From Bdellovibrio sp. (lineage in GTDB: Bacteria; Bdellovibrionota; UBA1018), in contig JACPOE010000044.1 in assembly GCA_016185105.1 (NCBI GenBank), positions 19,731 to 53,053 of the forward strand: a stretch of 33,323 nt of DNA, written 5' to 3'. This document shows positions 25,206 to 33,323 of this stretch, one piece after another. Numbering within the stretch: the stretch's first letter is position 1; every line of letters starts with the position of its first letter. Below the pieces are notes generated by a model. That model searched no databases. It saw only the letters and a program-made list of their open reading frames with translations, and had not been told where the DNA came from. The position numbers were made by a program, and so were the translations under genes.

Positions 25206-26504
25206 ATGTCTCTGCTTAAGGCGAAGAAAACTCGGCCATTCCTCCTCCTGGTAATCGGCCTGTTTGTAATTACGGAGATTATCTTGCTCTCTCCTTCTCC
25301 CTTGGAGGAGGTTCGTGTATCGTTAGCTCCGGCCAACCCGGATGTGTTTGTGCGTCCCACGGAGGCCTCCTTAGCACCCGGTATTCCGGCAAATAGGATA
25401 GCCGAATACGCCGTCGACAAATTCAACTATGTGTCGGTTCAAAGTGGTGAAAAACAATGGAAAATTGTCGCCGATAAGGCCTACATGTATAACCCTGAAA
25501 AGCTGGTTCACGCTCTTGAGGTGACCGCTCACCTTTATGATCCGGACGATTCCGCAACGATCGTCACTGGCAAAGAGGCGAAATACATTTTAAATCAAAA
25601 AGATTTAGAAATATTTGGAAATGTTCACACAGTTTTTCCGGATGGATTCGAACTCAGAAGCGAGTACCTAAGGTATTTGCCCAATGAAAAACGAATTATT
25701 ATCCCAAAGGAATACATTGTTAAAGGAGAGGGGAAACAAAGCAACGACCAAAGAATGCGATTCGTTAGTTTGGGGATGGACTATAAAATGGCTCAAGCTG
25801 AAATTATTCTCCCTGAAGCCGTCCATATGACAATGACACGAGACAACCCTCAACCGACTCCATCAGCGTCCCCGATTGCCCTTTCAAAAGAAAGTCCACA
25901 GAAGAATACTTCTCAGAAAACCGGTAAGGATGAGTGGACGTTGATCGAATCGGACCACTGCCTCATTTATAGGGACAGAAATCTGGCCCATTTCTCAATG
26001 TATCCAAATCGTCCTGATGCCCAAAGATACGTTCATATTACTCAGCCAGACCTATTCTCACGCTCACGGAGGGCAGACCTCAGATACGGTGCAGATTCCG
26101 AGGCTTTAGATTATATGACCGCTTTTGAGGATGTCCTGATTAAAGAAACAGGAAACGACGATGAACTTAGGTATGGAACGGGTGGCCGTGCAGACTTTGA
26201 TAACATCAAGAACCTAGTTACTTTAACGGTCTTCCCTCAGGTCTACCAAGATCAAGACACTGTAACTGGCGAGGTTATCGTTTTACATCGAGAAACCGAC
26301 GTTATTGAGGTCAAACACAGCAATGCTTTTAGTCAAGGAAGTAGCGACGACACTGATTCCGGAGCATCCCCTGACGGAAAGAAAAAGAAAAAAGGGGTTG
26401 TGAAAAACCAGCCTAAAAATACTGAAAATTTTGCAGAAAACGAAACAGAAACAAAAAAAATAACTGAACCCCCAGAAAATCATGACAAACCAAACTCACC
26501 CTGA
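25206..26504 (+). CDS. lptC: LptC-LptA fusion, periplasmic LPS-transport bridge
   Basis: A 432-residue protein joining two parts of the lipopolysaccharide bridge. Residues about 11-30 form one membrane anchor ([19 protein letters not shown]). Residues about 60-200 are LptC-like ([59 protein letters not shown]). A Pro/Ser/Lys linker follows, then a second OstA/LptA-like beta-jellyroll segment at about 245-380 ([54 protein letters not shown]). The tail is highly charged with runs of lysine. In most bacteria lptC and lptA are separate genes just ahead of lptB; here one frame covers both, and lptB follows with a 23-base overlap. The fusion call is by pattern and gene order. Confidence 0.85.
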
Positions 26505-27311: not shown

Positions 27312-28211
27312 ATGGCATTAGAGATTAAACAGAGTCTGAGATTAAGCCAGCAGCTAGTCATGACACCTCAGCTGCAGCAAGCGATTAAGCTCCTGCAGCT
27401 CAATAGAATGGAGCTCCAGGAAGTCGTCACTCAGGAGATGATGGAAAATCCAATCCTGGAGGAGGTCTCGGAGTCATCAGAAGCGGAAACTGAAACAGCC
27501 TCTTCTGAAATCAGCACCGAAAATAATCCTGAGGCCGAACAACAGCGAGATGAAGAATCCTTTATCAAACCAACCTCGCAGGAAGAGCAATTGGCTGCTC
27601 CTAAGGACGACTTCAACTGGGAGTCCTACGTTGAAGAATTCAATTCGACGTCCAGCTCAGCACCTTCGATGCGGGAAATTAATGAAGAACTTCCTGGATT
27701 CGAAAATGTTCTAACAAAGACAACCAGCTTAGAAGAACACCTGATGTGGCAACTTTCGATGGTCGCACTCGAACCTAATGAGCGAAAGCTCGGCGAGCTG
27801 ATCATTGGCAACCTTTCAGACGATGGCTATTTAAATGCTACGCTAGAGGACCTCGCCAGAGAAACCGGCCTTGAGATTGAGGACGCCGAAGAGGTCCTTA
27901 AGATTATTCAAAATTTCGACCCCATTGGAGTCGGCTCTCGGAACCTTCAAGAGTGCCTTTCGGTTCAATCGAAGTTCATGGAGCCCCGGCACCCTTTGGT
28001 CGAACAGATCATCGACTCCCACCTCGGGGACCTTGAAAAGAAAAATTATAACGCAATCGCAAAGACATTGGACACGCCTCTAGAAAAGGTGATTGAAGCG
28101 ACTCGCTTAATTATGGACTTGGAGCCGAAACCGGGTCGCTCTTTTGTCTCCGCCGACACCCAATATATTCCCCCGATATATACGTCTACAAGGTCGCCGA
28201 CGAATTCATGA
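27312..28211 (+). CDS. rpoN: Sigma-54 (RpoN), N-terminal part before a frameshift
   Basis: Alternative sigma factor that works with AAA+ enhancer-binding proteins. Region I is clear (LRLSQQLVMTPQLQQAIKLL, ELQEVVTQEMMENPILEE). An acidic region II of about 70 residues follows, then the core-binding domain (SLEEHLMWQLSMV, IGNLSDDGYL, FDPIGVGSRNLQECL, ATRLIMDLEPKPGRSF). At the C5 run 28170-28174 the frame breaks. After IPP the reading becomes unrelated residues and stops at 28211, whereas the family continues with the other frame. One added base restores a 495-residue RpoN. It follows lptB by 41 bp. This may be a sequencing error, a contingency tract or a true mutation. Confidence 0.9.
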   Translation: MALEIKQSLRLSQQLVMTPQLQQAIKLLQLNRMELQEVVTQEMMENPILEEVSESSEAETETASSEISTENNPEAEQQRDEESFIKPTSQEEQLAAPKDDFNWESYVEEFNSTSSSAPSMREINEELPGFENVLTKTTSLEEHLMWQLSMVALEPNERKLGELIIGNLSDDGYLNATLEDLARETGLEIEDAEEVLKIIQNFDPIGVGSRNLQECLSVQSKFMEPRHPLVEQIIDSHLGDLEKKNYNAIAKTLDTPLEKVIEATRLIMDLEPKPGRSFVSADTQYIPPIYTSTRSPTNS

Positions 28212-28798
28212 TTGTCTTGAATGAAGACGGCATGCCGAAGCTCAGAATTTCTCCTTACTACAGGAATATTTTAGCCTCAGCACAGAAAGAGCAAAACAAA
28301 GTCACTAAAGAATACGTACAGGACAAGCTACGATCGGCGATATGGCTCATCCGATCTATTCATAACCGCCAAAAAACAATTTACAAAGTGACTGAAGCCA
28401 TTGTTCGTCGGCAACGTGACTTTTTTGAAAAAGGAATTCAGCATCTTAAGCCGCTCATTCTAAAGGATGTTGCCAATGATATCGGAATGCATGAGTCGAC
28501 CATTTCACGGGTAACCACGAACAAATTTGTCCATACGCCAGTCGGAATTTTCGAATTGAAATACTTCTTTAACTCGAGCATTAATGCTGCTGACGGAAGC
28601 GATTCCCTTGCTAGTGAGGCTGTGAAGGAAAAAATCCGGCAAATGATTCAAAAGGAAGATCAAAAAGCGCCATTGTCGGACCAGAGAATTGTCGAACTCC
28701 TTAGGAACGACAATATTGAAATTGCCCGACGCACAGTAGCGAAGTATCGAGATATGCTAGGAATCCTTTCATCCGGAAAACGGAAAAAAATCATCTAA
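28208..28798 (+). CDS. rpoN: Sigma-54 (RpoN), C-terminal part after the frameshift
   Basis: Carries the rest of sigma-54: MIVLNEDGMPKLRISPYYRN, the long helix around RSAIWLIRSIHNRQKTIYKV, the helix-turn-helix MHESTISRVTTNKFVHTP that reads the -12 element, and the RpoN box IARRTVAKYRDMLG for the -24 element. Its ATG at 28208 overlaps the stop of the first part as ATGA, so re-initiation is conceivable. However, the true coding sequence runs back at least 11 codons further, to the C-run at 28174. The missing bridging residues make an intact gene with a one-base deletion the simplest reading. Confidence 0.9.
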   Translation: MIVLNEDGMPKLRISPYYRNILASAQKEQNKVTKEYVQDKLRSAIWLIRSIHNRQKTIYKVTEAIVRRQRDFFEKGIQHLKPLILKDVANDIGMHESTISRVTTNKFVHTPVGIFELKYFFNSSINAADGSDSLASEAVKEKIRQMIQKEDQKAPLSDQRIVELLRNDNIEIARRTVAKYRDMLGILSSGKRKKII

Positions 28799-28848
28799 CA
28801 ATCGCCTCTGAAAACAGTCATGAGGCGAAGTAAATAAGGGAGACATTT

Positions 28849-29142
28849 ATGAACTTGAACATCAGCTTTAAAAACATGAATTCTAGCGACGCCATGAAAG
28901 AATTTATCCGCGAAAAATCCGAGAGTCTGAAGAAATATTTTCAAGGCAAGGTATCTGTGACCTGGACCCTGTCGATGGAAAATCAATCCCGTGTTGCACA
29001 CTGCCACGCTGTTGGAAATTCAATGGACTATTTCGGCGATGGAGACACGGAAGACTTCAAAGCTTCGGTCGATTTAGCTCTAGATAAGATTGAAAAACAG
29101 ATTCGCAAACACAAAGAAATTGTAAAAAATCACAAAGCCTAA
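28849..29142 (+). CDS. hpf: Ribosome hibernation promoting factor, short form
   Basis: Binds the 30S decoding region and promotes ribosome dimers or silencing in slow growth. The 97-residue product has the S30AE fold pattern NLNISFKNMNSSDAMKEFIREK, then SVTWTLSMENQSRVAHCHA and the last helix ASVDLALDKIEKQIRKHK. It lacks the C-terminal dimerisation domain of long HPF. GGAG lies seven bases before the ATG. It follows rpoN, as in many proteobacteria. Its stop TAA overlaps the stop of the opposite-strand barrel gene. Confidence 0.94.
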   Translation: MNLNISFKNMNSSDAMKEFIREKSESLKKYFQGKVSVTWTLSMENQSRVAHCHAVGNSMDYFGDGDTEDFKASVDLALDKIEKQIRKHKEIVKNHKA

Positions 29143-30791
29143 AAAGAAAAAGATACCCCCGCTGAAGCGACGTAGCGATTGTATTGGTAAGTACTGACGA
29201 CTTGAGAATCCCCGCACGCTACGTTATCCAGGGTGTATTGAAATTCCCCATAGATACTTAGCGGACCTGTACCTAATTTATAGGTTGGGTAAAATCCAAA
29301 ACTGAAGAGAGTATCGAACCGCTGAGGATTTGGGCGGCGATCGTAACGAGCGTAGCCGACCGAGGCAGTAAAATAGCCTCGGAATTTTTCGCTAAAATAA
29401 AGGCTATTATTTGCTTCCAGAGCTAGCGTCATCGAGTTGAATTCGGTCCCAGTGGTATTATTGTAGTCGAAAAGCAGAGATATGCCTGGATTCCAGAATC
29501 TTCGGCCTTCATCGTTGCGTAGGGAAATTTTCGTGTTGTAGTCCACCCCAGAACGTTGATTTGTTGAGGATGGATCTAAAAGCAGGTCAGTGAAAAACCG
29601 TTCAGGAACAAAGTTGGCTTCCACATTAAGCACTAGTTTTGGACGCATTTCATACTTAATATAAGGACCAATCGTCAGCAGAGCGCTGTAAGTTGTAAAG
29701 ATTCGATTATTGCTGCTATCTGGCTGATCCTGCAGAGTATAACTTAACCCGCCTTTTATGCCGTAACCCGTGCGAGCCAAAGCCCCTTTAGTCACATATA
29801 GGGTGAGATCATGTGTGAAATACTCGCCGTTTAGAGTCGCTGAATTGAAATTGATATTTAAAGACGTTCGGTAGATCGGCAAAAACTGAACCTCCTTAAG
29901 GGGAGAAGAGAAATATCCGATGCTCCCAGCAAAATTCTCCTTCAACGTCGCCGCTCCGGTAGGGGTGGAAGAACTGGTAACACCAGAAACTCCCGAGCCT
30001 AAAGCAAGCACGTTACTATCGTAAGCGGTTGATAATCCCGCCGAGCCAAAGTACCCACTCTTATGAAAAGGCCTCAGCGCGGCTTCCGCACTCCGATAGA
30101 CTTCGGCGGTCACTTTTCTTCGCTGCGGAGAGCTGTCCTGTGCGTACCTAGGTTTTCGACTCTCGTCTAAAGCATCCCGAAAGCTTTGGATCGCAGCGGA
30201 AGTAGCCCCTTGTCGAAGGTAAATCTGACCTAAGTAAAGCTGAGAGGCTCCGCGTAAGTCTTCGAATCCCGACTCTAGAACAAAATTAAAATGCTTTTCA
30301 GCTTCTCTAAGCTGGTTATCTTTCAAAGCGAGCTGGCCTAGAAAATACTTACAGGGTGCCAGATTCACGCCCGCCTGAAAGGTTTTCTCCAAAAGCCCCT
30401 TAGCTTCCTCGTCATTCCCCTCATGGAGACGAATCAACGCCAACTCGAAATAATAGGGAGCCACATCTTTCGGAGTCTTTCCTTCGCTTTCCCTGAGACG
30501 AATCAATTTCTGATAGAGATCTGCTGATCCGCCCTCATCCTGGTTATTCTTCAGAACCAAAGCGGTCAACTCCATGAACTCTGGAGTGTCTGGATTTTGT
30601 TTCATTAGATCATTTAAAATCTGTAACGCTCGATTATAGTCTCGGCCATTGTAGGCCAAAACAGCATCTGCATACACCGGCTCGAGGGCTGAGGAAATTT
30701 CTGCTCGAGCAGCGCCTGATATTCCAAAAATACCTAACAACAAAAAATAAATAATTTTATTCTTGCCCACTTGTCCAGAGATCTTAACCAA
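29139..30791 (-). CDS. TPR plus outer-membrane beta-barrel protein (Slam-like architecture)
   Basis: A 550-residue exported protein. The signal peptide ends AARA after the hydrophobic run IIYFLLLGIFGISG. Residues about 30-215 are tetratricopeptide-type helices (for example AYNGRDYNRALQILNDLMKQN and AEKHFNFVLESG). The rest is a barrel starting GYFGSAGLSTAYDSNVLAL and ending in alternating strands with a terminal Phe (GVSFSF), the usual BAM signal. TPR followed by a barrel with a YDSNV entry strand resembles the DUF560/Slam surface-lipoprotein exporters, but other TPR-barrel families exist. The start is unsure: TTG at 30791 or GTG at 30770, both with weak ribosome sites. It diverges from the FecR gene with almost no spacer. 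Confidence 0.75.
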   Translation of the reverse strand: MVKISGQVGKNKIIYFLLLGIFGISGAARAEISSALEPVYADAVLAYNGRDYNRALQILNDLMKQNPDTPEFMELTALVLKNNQDEGGSADLYQKLIRLRESEGKTPKDVAPYYFELALIRLHEGNDEEAKGLLEKTFQAGVNLAPCKYFLGQLALKDNQLREAEKHFNFVLESGFEDLRGASQLYLGQIYLRQGATSAAIQSFRDALDESRKPRYAQDSSPQRRKVTAEVYRSAEAALRPFHKSGYFGSAGLSTAYDSNVLALGSGVSGVTSSSTPTGAATLKENFAGSIGYFSSPLKEVQFLPIYRTSLNINFNSATLNGEYFTHDLTLYVTKGALARTGYGIKGGLSYTLQDQPDSSNNRIFTTYSALLTIGPYIKYEMRPKLVLNVEANFVPERFFTDLLLDPSSTNQRSGVDYNTKISLRNDEGRRFWNPGISLLFDYNNTTGTEFNSMTLALEANNSLYFSEKFRGYFTASVGYARYDRRPNPQRFDTLFSFGFYPTYKLGTGPLSIYGEFQYTLDNVACGDSQVVSTYQYNRYVASAGVSFSF

Positions 30792-30811
30792 GCTAGATTT
30801 TGAATCAATGA

Positions 30812-31696
30812 TTCTTTTTTCAATATTCTTTATGCACAGTAATCAGTCTCAATGGCGAAGTAAAAGTTCAGATTCCGGCAAACGCGGCACTTCCGGCTAG
30901 CACCCAAGACCTTCATCCCGGTGACAAACTTCATGCTGGTGAGCAGATTAAAACTGGAGCTGACGGTTCTATTAAAATCATGCTTACGGATCGGAGTATT
31001 ATCGATTTGGGAGCAGGATCTACCTTCAAGCTCGACGAGTACAATCTAAAAAATGGAGAAGACCGCACTGTTACGATGACCCTGAGTCAGGGCAAACTTC
31101 GAAACTCGATTACAAAACCTGTAAAGACCCCTGGCCGGTTTATCATTCGGACTGGCGCGGCCATTATGGGCGTCAGAGGAACTGAGTTTATTGTGAGTGC
31201 CATGCCCAATGCCGGTCAGCTGACCACCCAAGTTACGGTCATCCACGGAACGGTCGACTATGCGCCTCGTGTTGGCCCACCCGGCCCCCCTATTCAACTA
31301 GGAGAGGGGCGTCAACTGACCGTTTCAAATCACCTTGGCACCGATGGCCGCGTCCTAGCAAGTGCCCAGCCCGCAGCGCCACAGGTCACCCGTTTGCAAG
31401 CCGCGGAAGTTCAAGCTGTTGCACATGAAGCGCACGTGGCCGATACCACCTTTCAAAAAGCTGTTGTTGTGGAAAAAAACAACCAAGGTCCCACTGTCGC
31501 AGGAGCACCCCCAGGCAGCACCTTGGTTGCCATGGCCCGGTCTTTTGCCCCACCCCCGCCTCCGCCGCCTCCTGCTTTTGGAAACATGGGTGCTCCGGGA
31601 ACTGGAATTGGGTTTCTGCCTCCCACCACTAATCCGACCGCTGCGCGACCTCCTCTGGGAATACCCGTCAACGTGAAGGTAAATTTTAAACCATGA
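30812..31696 (+). CDS. FecR-domain protein with missing start and signal peptide
   Basis: The FecR domain runs from TVISLNGEVKVQ (about 30836) through HPGDKLHAGEQIKTGADGSI, MLTDRSIIDLGAGSTFKL and the GRFIIRTGAAIMGVRGTEFIV strand pair. It is followed by a Gln/Ala-rich segment and a proline-rich tail (eight prolines in a row near 31548-31571). In this frame no ATG, GTG or TTG lies between the stop at 30809 and the ATG at 30980, which is inside the domain. A frame-1 ATG at 30808 could supply only about ten residues after a one-base correction. Such proteins are normally exported, so the 5' end appears deleted or frameshifted. It couples to the lipoprotein gene by ATGA. No sigma factor or TonB receptor is adjacent, so it is probably not a FecIR regulator. 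Confidence 0.75.
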   Translation, partial: FFFQYSLCTVISLNGEVKVQIPANAALPASTQDLHPGDKLHAGEQIKTGADGSIKIMLTDRSIIDLGAGSTFKLDEYNLKNGEDRTVTMTLSQGKLRNSITKPVKTPGRFIIRTGAAIMGVRGTEFIVSAMPNAGQLTTQVTVIHGTVDYAPRVGPPGPPIQLGEGRQLTVSNHLGTDGRVLASAQPAAPQVTRLQAAEVQAVAHEAHVADTTFQKAVVVEKNNQGPTVAGAPPGSTLVAMARSFAPPPPPPPPAFGNMGAPGTGIGFLPPTTNPTAARPPLGIPVNVKVNFKP

Positions 31697-32892
31697 GAAC
31701 ACTTTCTCTTCTGTCTGCATTTGCTCTGGTACTTTCGGGCTGTAGCTTGGTCCCAAATACCTCTCGTCCGGTAGGACTAACCCTTCACATGCCGTTTGCC
31801 CCTCAGGAAGAATCTCTTCGACTGGGGACACTAGCTGACCTGCCCGGGTTTCCAACGGGGCCTGTTTCCCCCCCGACTAGTCTGACAGGGTTTGACTGCT
31901 ATGCTTTCAATATCTTTGGACCAGGAATTAACGGTGACCTTCTAGGTGCCGGGTCAAACAATATTCCCCCTGCGGGGTGTTCTTATCTTGGGATTAGCTC
32001 AGTTCTTCTTCCCCCTTCGCAGACCACAGCTACCCTTGTTATTCCGAGCGGCCCAACCCGCACTGTTCAAGCGATTGGCATTGCTACAGGAAATGGTTGT
32101 CCTGCCACAGGTAGCCTTAGGGATTACCTCGGCGCGTTGAAATCTACTTACGGCACAGGCCCCCTGCCCGTAATTCTGACGGAATTAGGAAAAACTACCG
32201 CTGATATTTTTCAAGATTCTATTGTTAATGTTCAAAATACTTTCGCTTCCGGGACTACGTCTACTAATGGCTTCCCTTTTCACTGTCCAGCCGTCACAAC
32301 TCCTGGGACTATTCTGCCGTTGGTTGCCGGATTCAGGGGTGAGGTCATTAATGGGACTTTTTCTGAGACTTTTTCTAACAATTTACCCCCTTCTGGATTG
32401 GTTGCCATTTCCAATGCAGAGGTCACCACTCTTTCCAATCCGTTTAATACAACACCCGTTTTCGTGACCACTCCAGCGTCGAGCTATTTTGAAAGGCTAG
32501 ATCTTGTTTTCAACACAGCCTCGGTGAACCTGTCGGCATTTTCAACGGTGCTCGTAGAGGCGATGATTGTTGGAGGATTGAGCCCTCAACTGGCAACAGT
32601 GTGTACCGCTCCAGCCTCGTTAACCACTCCCGGTGCTGAAATTCGAATTTACGATCCAGTCGCGGCGGCTTGGACCCCGACAAACTCAATAAACACAACG
32701 ACAACCTTTCAGGGAGTGTCTTTTGTCGCATCAAAAGTTCCTCTACAGATGGCGGTGACTGAAACCGGAACACCAGCTGGGACCTATCTGCATGTTTCAA
32801 TTCGGTCTCAACAGGCAACTTCGGGATCAATTACCTGCTCGACAGTAGGCGTAAAGTTTATTCGAGTATCGTTAATCCCGTCCAGTAACTGA
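31693..32892 (+). CDS. Secreted lipoprotein of unknown function
   Basis: A 399-residue lipoprotein: the signal RTLSLLSAFALVLSGC places the lipidated cysteine at residue 17, followed by Ser, which favours transport to the outer membrane. The mature part is rich in Ser, Thr, Pro, Gly and beta-prone residues, with several cysteines (for example in GFDCYAFNIFGPG, AGCSYLG and GNGCPAT) that could form disulfides. I do not recognise a family. It overlaps the FecR-domain gene by four bases and is likely translated with it. The nearby TPR-barrel protein could be its surface exporter, which is a guess from architecture. Confidence 0.8.
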   Translation: MRTLSLLSAFALVLSGCSLVPNTSRPVGLTLHMPFAPQEESLRLGTLADLPGFPTGPVSPPTSLTGFDCYAFNIFGPGINGDLLGAGSNNIPPAGCSYLGISSVLLPPSQTTATLVIPSGPTRTVQAIGIATGNGCPATGSLRDYLGALKSTYGTGPLPVILTELGKTTADIFQDSIVNVQNTFASGTTSTNGFPFHCPAVTTPGTILPLVAGFRGEVINGTFSETFSNNLPPSGLVAISNAEVTTLSNPFNTTPVFVTTPASSYFERLDLVFNTASVNLSAFSTVLVEAMIVGGLSPQLATVCTAPASLTTPGAEIRIYDPVAAAWTPTNSINTTTTFQGVSFVASKVPLQMAVTETGTPAGTYLHVSIRSQQATSGSITCSTVGVKFIRVSLIPSSN

Positions 32893-32897
32893 TAACA

Positions 32898-33323
32898 CTA
32901 GTCTGCCAGCTCAACGACTCGTCCATCATCAATTGCCACGATGACTCTGAGCTTTGTCCCTTCCAAAACACGATGGGCGTAGAAATAGGCTTCCTCATCA
33001 GAGGGCAAATCAATGGTGTCCAAAGACTTTCCATCGAACCCCATCCGCAGGAGCTGATTCTTACGAACTTTGGGATTGCCCGTCGTTTTTTCAGTCCGCG
33101 ACTGGGAACCTTCGACTCCAAAAAATACCGAATTTCTTCCAGTAACAAACGGATGGTAGTAAACAGCCCTATGAGGCTCATTTCTAGCCCATTCTGCTAT
33201 TTTTTCCTGCTGCCGAAAACCCAATCCTCCTAGGACCTGACTCTCAGAGGCACTGGCATAAAAAATACGATCCCCATCGGGACTCATTTCTACCTGTGTG
33301 GCCTGAACGGACAAAGATCGTTT
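32898..33323 (-). CDS. Beta-propeller (TolB/WD40-like) protein, 5' end beyond window
   Basis: The last 141 or so residues of a gene that enters from the right edge. The frame is open to base 33323, and the TTG at 33314 is probably internal. One propeller-repeat motif is visible (EMSPDGDRIFYAS), and the later FGVEGSQSRTE, LLRMGFDGKSLDTIDLP and LRVIVAIDDGRVVELAD also look like blades with sequence about displayed values. The N-terminus cannot be judged. It converges on the lipoprotein gene with five bases between stops. Confidence 0.65.
   Translation of the reverse strand, partial: KRSLSVQATQVEMSPDGDRIFYASASESQVLGGLGFRQQEKIAEWARNEPHRAVYYHPFVTGRNSVFFGVEGSQSRTEKTTGNPKVRKNQLLRMGFDGKSLDTIDLPSDEEAYFYAHRVLEGTKLRVIVAIDDGRVVELAD

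Follow-up and report, generated by a model that had tools for sequence, protein, structure and literature searches.

How lipoproteins reach the cell surface beyond the Slam- and Bacteroidetes-type systems is, to our knowledge, largely open, and we know of no role assigned to those FecR-domain proteins that lack a sigma or TonB partner. Both questions are raised by a locus of Bdellovibrio sp. within a 33,323-nucleotide stretch (assembly GCA_016185105.1, contig JACPOE010000044.1, positions 19,731 to 53,053), the whole of which we call the window. Here, a gene for an outer-membrane barrel protein with tetratricopeptide repeats (TPR) lies on the minus strand, a FecR-domain gene diverges from it on the plus strand, and a lipoprotein gene follows behind FecR. 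A sequence-only reading had taken the three for a possible Slam-like export locus with the neighbouring lipoprotein as substrate; the functional analogy and the co-occurrence of the genes stood up, but membership of the Slam family did not, as no DUF560 match was found. Our results show that the barrel, FecR and lipoprotein genes form a real, conserved cassette, which could serve to display lipoproteins on the cell surface. Its parts, with positions in the window, are as follows.

29139-30791, minus strand: gene for the TPR and predicted 14-strand outer-membrane barrel protein, 550 amino acids, TTG start (open reading frame, Pfam, alignment, model)
30066-30683, minus strand: TPR domain, residues 37-242 (Pfam TPR_16; model helices; MamA, Z 19.1)
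29142-30056, minus strand: predicted 14-strand barrel, residues 246-550 (AlphaFold2; CymA, Z 22.4; OmpG, Z 21.5)
30009-30023, minus strand: YDSNV motif, residues 257-261, at the end of the first barrel strand (alignment, model)
30792-30829, no strand: shortened divergent stretch between the barrel and FecR genes (compared with 22 relatives)
30830-31696, plus strand: frame of the FecR-domain protein, 288 amino acids, first ATG at 30980, lacking a start codon or signal peptide in the assembly
30830-31123, plus strand: retention-module-like N-terminal part of FecR, residues 1-98 (5ix9, Z 9.6; NF033682; family profile against the PDB)
30932-31441, plus strand: FecR/PupR-like domain, residues 35-204 (PF04773; 6ovk, Z 16.4)
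31451-31654, plus strand: Pro/Ala-rich leash of FecR, of low confidence (predicted local distance difference test, pLDDT, below 50 for residues 208-288)
31658-31693, plus strand: strand-like hydrophobic C-terminal tail of FecR, GIPVNVKVNFKP, absent as a strand in the model (residue pattern in relatives)
31693-31696, plus strand: ATGA overlap of the lipoprotein start and the FecR stop (sequence)
31693-32892, plus strand: lipoprotein gene, 399 amino acids, Cys17/Ser18 (open reading frame, lipobox alignment)
31693-32286, plus strand: conserved lipidated N-terminal domain, common to the lipoproteins of relatives (family model)
32287-32889, plus strand: C-terminal passenger of the lipoprotein, no Pfam match (Pfam)

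Conservation of the cassette

A strong match to the barrel protein (E<1e-20) was present in 41 of 58 related genomes, the window's own included. We read 45 barrel loci, again counting the window, of which four end at a contig edge. In 38 of the 41 assessable loci FecR is the immediate divergent neighbour of the barrel gene, and chance adjacency of the two was therefore rejected. The remaining three are L103, with a co-directional FecR and a barrel cut at its 5' end, L102, with FecR beyond an intervening lipoprotein gene, and L063, which has none. Adjoining FecR genes are found in 39 loci, five of which run off the contig, and the lipoprotein lies directly behind FecR in 18 of the other 34, sometimes with a 4-base overlap; the second barrel of L096 and the locus L100, which holds FecR and lipoprotein only, were left out of the 41 and the 34. 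By these counts, the three-gene co-occurrence in related genomes is strong.

The association extends beyond adjacency, as the lipoprotein domain occurs in 38 of the 41 genomes that match the barrel strongly versus 8 of 17 others (Fisher p 3e-4), or in 21/22 versus 7/15 by genus (p 1e-3), values that overstate independence because the genomes are related. When the neighbours in 32 of the 45 loci were clustered, covering 20 genera, the barrel family appeared in 20 genera, FecR in 19 and the lipoprotein clusters in 5 and 4, and no other neighbour family was found in more than four genera of this set. At least two lipoproteins per genome were present in 19 of 46 lipoprotein-bearing genomes, whereas 35 of the 41 genomes with a barrel have a single barrel match, as would be expected if one machine served several substrates. 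The barrel-family alignment also matched 10 metagenome-assembled genomes titled Oligoflexia, Bdellovibrionales, Bacteriovoracaceae, Bdellovibrionota and, in one case, "Proteobacteria"; the same set searched with the window barrel protein alone gave nothing, and among these loci the lipoprotein was seen in L120 only. The cassette was unreported in the literature searched, the coverage of which excludes most subscription papers and bioRxiv.

Variants of the arrangement were recorded as well. At L096:631-3651 a second, co-directional trio stands beside the divergent one, consisting of a TPR-barrel relative of 450 amino acids, a FecR and a 289-amino-acid lipobox protein without a match to the lipoprotein model. 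A different lipobox protein lies behind the barrel gene on the same strand in L066:4057-5916, L069:750-2600, L076:4063-5910 and L077:12690-14504, and one gene further away in L061:14609-16525 and L062:9906-11840; apart from L069, these five belong to the 16 loci that lack the cassette lipoprotein, and the three proteins tested showed sub-threshold resemblance to M36/M4 metallopeptidases. In G036 the barrel has no FecR neighbour, and a family FecR is located on another contig (L107:6805-9272), followed by a 440-amino-acid protein.

The barrel protein and its relation to Slam

The TPR plus barrel layout with the YDSNV motif, as described in the sequence-only reading, was confirmed. The TPR part of the window protein matches Pfam TPR_16 at 8.5e-13, and the AlphaFold2 model (pLDDT 85.9) comprises an N-terminal helix, the TPR domain and 14 barrel strands within residues 246-549. 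Within YDSNV, N260 is invariant and D258 nearly so across 36 aligned family members. The TPR part of the model resembles MamA, while CymA and OmpG are the closest solved barrels among the matches listed. The top Foldseek match is BcsC (E 2.2e-10), with a low TM-score of 0.29. A profile of the barrel family searched against the PDB gave matches in the TPR part only among the best 60 of 152. No Slam entry was among the 50 matches each that were listed by Foldseek and VIA for the model, which excludes nothing.

PF04575, the DUF560/Slam family, is absent for the window barrel protein at E<=1, is not among the best 25 of 61 Pfam families for the 36 family members, and is not listed for eight wider relatives. 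A search of 191 genomes of the phylum returned one match, in G144, at 5e-4 and below the cut-off, which was not reproduced when the G144 protein was scanned by itself; the controls of these genome searches gave no match anywhere. TPR_Slam matches 27 of 36 family members at E<=1, the best of them below the cut-off, and was set aside, being outscored by generic TPR models. On sequence grounds, membership of the Slam family was thus rejected.

The cassette and the Slam/type XI secretion system (T11SS) nevertheless share a TPR domain joined to a 14-strand barrel (predicted here), adjoining lipoprotein genes and cargo in which one part is shared and the other varies. They differ in that the cassette has no DUF560 match above the cut-off and includes a FecR-domain partner. 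Moreover, the shared part of the cassette lipoprotein is N-terminal and lipidated and its variable part C-terminal, while known Slam cargo carries a C-terminal eight-strand barrel according to the available text of PMC12282271. No such eight-strand family appeared as a C-terminal cargo part among the best 25 of 52 Pfam families of 58 cassette lipoproteins. The missing DUF560 match and the location of the shared cargo part at the opposite end are the reasons why we do not class the cassette as Slam.

The FecR-domain protein

The gene across from the barrel gene is indeed a divergent FecR-domain gene, with a match to PF04773 at 2.2e-15. Its listed ATG lies inside the domain, and the homologous frame extends back to about 30830. 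The distance from the conserved Glu37 of the barrel protein to the VxSxxG motif of FecR is 155 nucleotides in the window versus 213-390 in 22 relatives, which thus hold at least 58 additional nucleotides between the coding cores, including the FecR start and a signal-peptide-like stretch. Of 36 rows, 23 contained the motif, namely that of the window and those of 22 relatives, and 13 gave no match; a second match in L095 (212 nucleotides) was set aside, its surrounding stretch being unlike FecR. Complete FecR relatives have about 270-530 amino acids.

The FecR model is usable to about residue 205. Residues 35-204 match the structures 6ovk and 4m0n (the latter at Z 15.9), and PupR and a Parabacteroides putative anti-sigma factor are the fold matches of this part with Z of about 16. 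The cassette FecR therefore shares its domain fold and PF04773 with the FecR/PupR signalling proteins but differs from them in its context. No anti-sigma Pfam domain was found in the FecR proteins scanned, i.e., those of L067, L203 and the window, in the last of which the N-terminus is missing, and no FecI-type sigma factor or TonB receptor was seen among neighbour families shared by at least three genera in the 32 loci, judged by eye. The sigma gene beside the window locus is rpoN, encoding sigma-54.

A second resemblance concerns residues 1-98, which match 5ix9, labelled "Cell surface anchoring domain", over 72 aligned residues with 26% identity. We take 5ix9 to come from the Marinomonas ice adhesin, as its retention domain; the records of the sequence themselves say "Antifreeze protein". 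It is also the best PDB match of the FecR family profile (1.3e-5). The LapA retention family NF033682 matches the window FecR at 1.7e-6, below the cut-off, and 34 of 39 FecR family members at E<=0.01, below the curated 50 bits where seen. In both sequence and fold the protein thus resembles a LapA-type retention module, short of the family cut-off. The LapA/MpIBP adhesins are nonetheless different, as the cassette FecR is a separate small protein with a TPR barrel as its partner, whereas their module forms the N-terminus of a giant adhesin with type I secretion. Retention domains fold inside the cell and are too large for the export channel, according to the available text of PMC12077191. The resemblance to a retention module lends support to the earlier suggestion that FecR may take part in substrate presentation. 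The best NCBIfam relatives of the cassette FecR are Lsa33 and LipL45 (39/39 and 37/39 members), FecR-domain surface proteins of Leptospira, which belongs to another phylum; the cassette proteins score far below the curated cut-offs of these families where seen.

The C-terminal residues of FecR alternate like those of a strand in 34 of 35 complete divergent-type members versus 125 of 803 other open reading frames. This pattern was written after the tails had been seen, the controls were six-frame open reading frames above 250 amino acids, some of which are surely non-genes, and L101 and the window's own FecR were left out of the count.

The lipoprotein family

The lipoprotein was correctly described as having Cys17 and Ser at +2, and the overlap of its ATG (31693) with the stop of FecR makes the proposed translational coupling plausible. 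We counted 58 lipoproteins from 64 model matches (56 and 8), and 19 of the 58 also built the model. Six matches were left out, namely a duplicate of the window protein and five others, of which most have an uncertain 5' end: a short piece in L070, one protein each in L184 and L189, and a pair in L185. The lipobox cysteine aligns in all 58, and the +2 residue is Ser in 44 and Asp in 5. The N-terminal part of about 190 residues constitutes a domain without a Pfam match, in which C17, G120, R123 and C198 are invariant in 19 sequences, and this domain is present in 46 of 58 relatives and 111 of 290 genomes of the phylum.

The length of the C-terminal part ranges between about 50 and about 1,500 residues, and the whole proteins reach 1,717 residues. 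Its folds are RCC1-like, NHL, Kelch and SBBP propellers as well as LamG, fn3 and Ig-like domains among the best 25 of 52 families, with RCC1-like repeats in 8 of the 58 proteins, NHL in 5, LamG in 5, Kelch in 4 and SBBP in 3, sets that may overlap. In several lipoproteins the propellers or LamG are located C-terminally; the passenger of the window protein matches nothing in Pfam. Among 10 lipoproteins of one genus, the N-terminal 210 residues match in 26 of 45 pairs and the part starting at residue 261 in 11 of 45. This is the pattern of an anchor or sorting part held in common, followed by an outer part that is exposed and changes. At least two lipoproteins with the shared domain follow each other closely in L106 and L184-L187. 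The third-gene lipoprotein of L174, outside the family set, has FG-GAP repeats.

Neighbouring genes and assembly quality

About 340 bases from the barrel gene, rpoN (27312-28798) is split into two overlapping frames. In the second, open and homologous-looking sequence extends upstream of the ATG, indicating a frameshift, whether genuine or introduced during assembly. The frameshifted rpoN makes sequence errors likely in the assembly, which is 82% complete. One open reading frame (25206-26504) contains LptC-like and LptA/OstA-like domains, an apparent LptC-LptA fusion. Rfam gave no match at 28700-33323, and a promoter scan of 30700-31000 stayed at chance level.

A proposed display complex and its rivals

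As a tentative explanation, we hypothesize that the cassette encodes a surface-lipoprotein display complex, Slam-like but separate, with FecR as its plug or gate. The three products would form one outer-membrane complex that places the lipoprotein family on the cell surface, the TPR-barrel protein being the pore or scaffold. A periplasmic FecR would dock on the TPR domain or the barrel mouth, perhaps via its putative strand-like tail, and serve as plug, gate or retention piece. The shared lipidated N-terminal domain would be the part recognised by the complex, and the variable propeller, lectin or Ig part would be carried outward as the exposed, ligand-binding part. A more specific version is doubtful, in which the Bdellovibrionota have a display system of non-Slam type. 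Its TPR-barrel translocator would have a separate FecR/retention-module protein as gate and would pick out its cargo by an N-terminal lipidated domain acting as the sorting signal, C-terminal to which evolution exchanges propeller, lectin and Ig domains; here, the beta-strand tail of FecR may be left in the complex and the exchanged domains perhaps bind other cells.

Several observations weigh against surface display. The lipoprotein is not next door in 16 of 34 loci, the genomes of which all hold its domain, three barrel genomes of one genus (G018, G029, G033) do not hold it, and it is present in 8 of the 17 genomes that lack a strong barrel match. Ser at +2 fits either face of the outer membrane. 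The window FecR has no export signal, and its model shows no strand at the tail, where pLDDT is below 50. In the wider phylum, the strand-like tail is found in only 3 of 19 co-directional FecR proteins (43 of 66 over all FecR counted), and FecR adjoins the barrel in 13 of the 18 loci L162-L179; it was not found in L167, L169, L170, L171 and L178, where L167 and L170 end at a contig edge and the gene next to the barrel in L171 has a weak FecR match. The rare tail in co-directional FecR together with the frequently adjoining CHASE2 cyclase points to sensing.

The main rival is accordingly a trans-envelope sensor. Contact of the lipoprotein's outer part with a ligand or another cell would be passed on through the periplasm by the barrel and FecR, and a CHASE2 protein of the inner membrane would convert it into a nucleotide or kinase signal. 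Surface display would then be the means and signalling the purpose, and the two may both hold. In 18 of the 20 loci L201-L220, FecR adjoins co-directionally a TPR-barrel relative of about 530-770 residues (it is one gene away in L208, and L215 is not judgeable). A lipoprotein is near in eight of the 20, a frequency biased by the way the loci were picked from barrel and lipoprotein matches: some were taken for the proximity of the two, and two on account of the lipoprotein only. A CHASE2-cyclase-like gene is on the same stretch in 10 of the 20 and also in L175 and L176, the domains having been read for one such gene, and the PupR-like fold of FecR fits a sensor as well. FecR is likewise linked to a CHASE2 kinase in a Burkholderia biofilm operon, but that FecR carries LysM, and no TPR barrel is named in the available text (PMC5192318). 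The sensor is rather unlikely for the cassette described here, since no CHASE2-cyclase-like gene was found in the divergent-type loci L061-L113 (phmmer E<=1e-20), both CHASE2 matches of the window genome are on other contigs and none adjoins the window locus, and the FecR proteins scanned have no anti-sigma domain. It is less probable still that the lipoprotein remains on the outer membrane's inner face, where together with FecR it would do no more than stabilise or plug a barrel transporting a small substrate. Lipoprotein partners of barrels exist, e.g., LptE, and the similarity to CymA and OmpG would agree with such a role, but proteins that reach 1,717 residues, contain propellers, LamG or Ig-like domains and diverge much faster in their outer parts than in the N-terminal domain look exposed and not structural.

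The two remaining explanations follow known TPR-barrel systems and are both very improbable. BcsC and PelB have 16-strand barrels, and BcsC, PgaA and PelB come with linked polysaccharide synthases. The available text of PMC8406197 gives 14 strands for the DUF560 barrel and 16 for that of PgaA. The layout of the cassette barrel, with its 14 predicted strands, would therefore agree with a true Slam/type XI exporter carrying Slam cargo, as would the weak TPR_Slam matches and the sub-threshold match in G144, against which stand the missing PF04575 in the window protein, the family and the wider relatives including the G144 protein itself, the better scores of generic TPR models and the N-terminal position of the shared cargo part. 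Polysaccharide export in the manner of BcsC, PgaA or PelB is the least probable of all. The TPR-barrel architecture and the top Foldseek match to BcsC speak for it, and in L062 a GT22-like gene and the barrel gene converge, with look-alikes of the former in L061 and L064, judged by eye. The strand number differs, however, the partners are FecR and a lipoprotein instead, and no synthase or glycosyltransferase was seen among neighbour families in at least three genera, again by eye.

The display complex thus remains our preferred explanation. A barrel/FecR pair with lipoproteins that share one N-terminal domain and change their outer parts of ligand-binding type provides a concrete, testable locus for both opening questions in the Bdellovibrionota, a phylum with well-known predators, for which recognition of other cells is a necessity.

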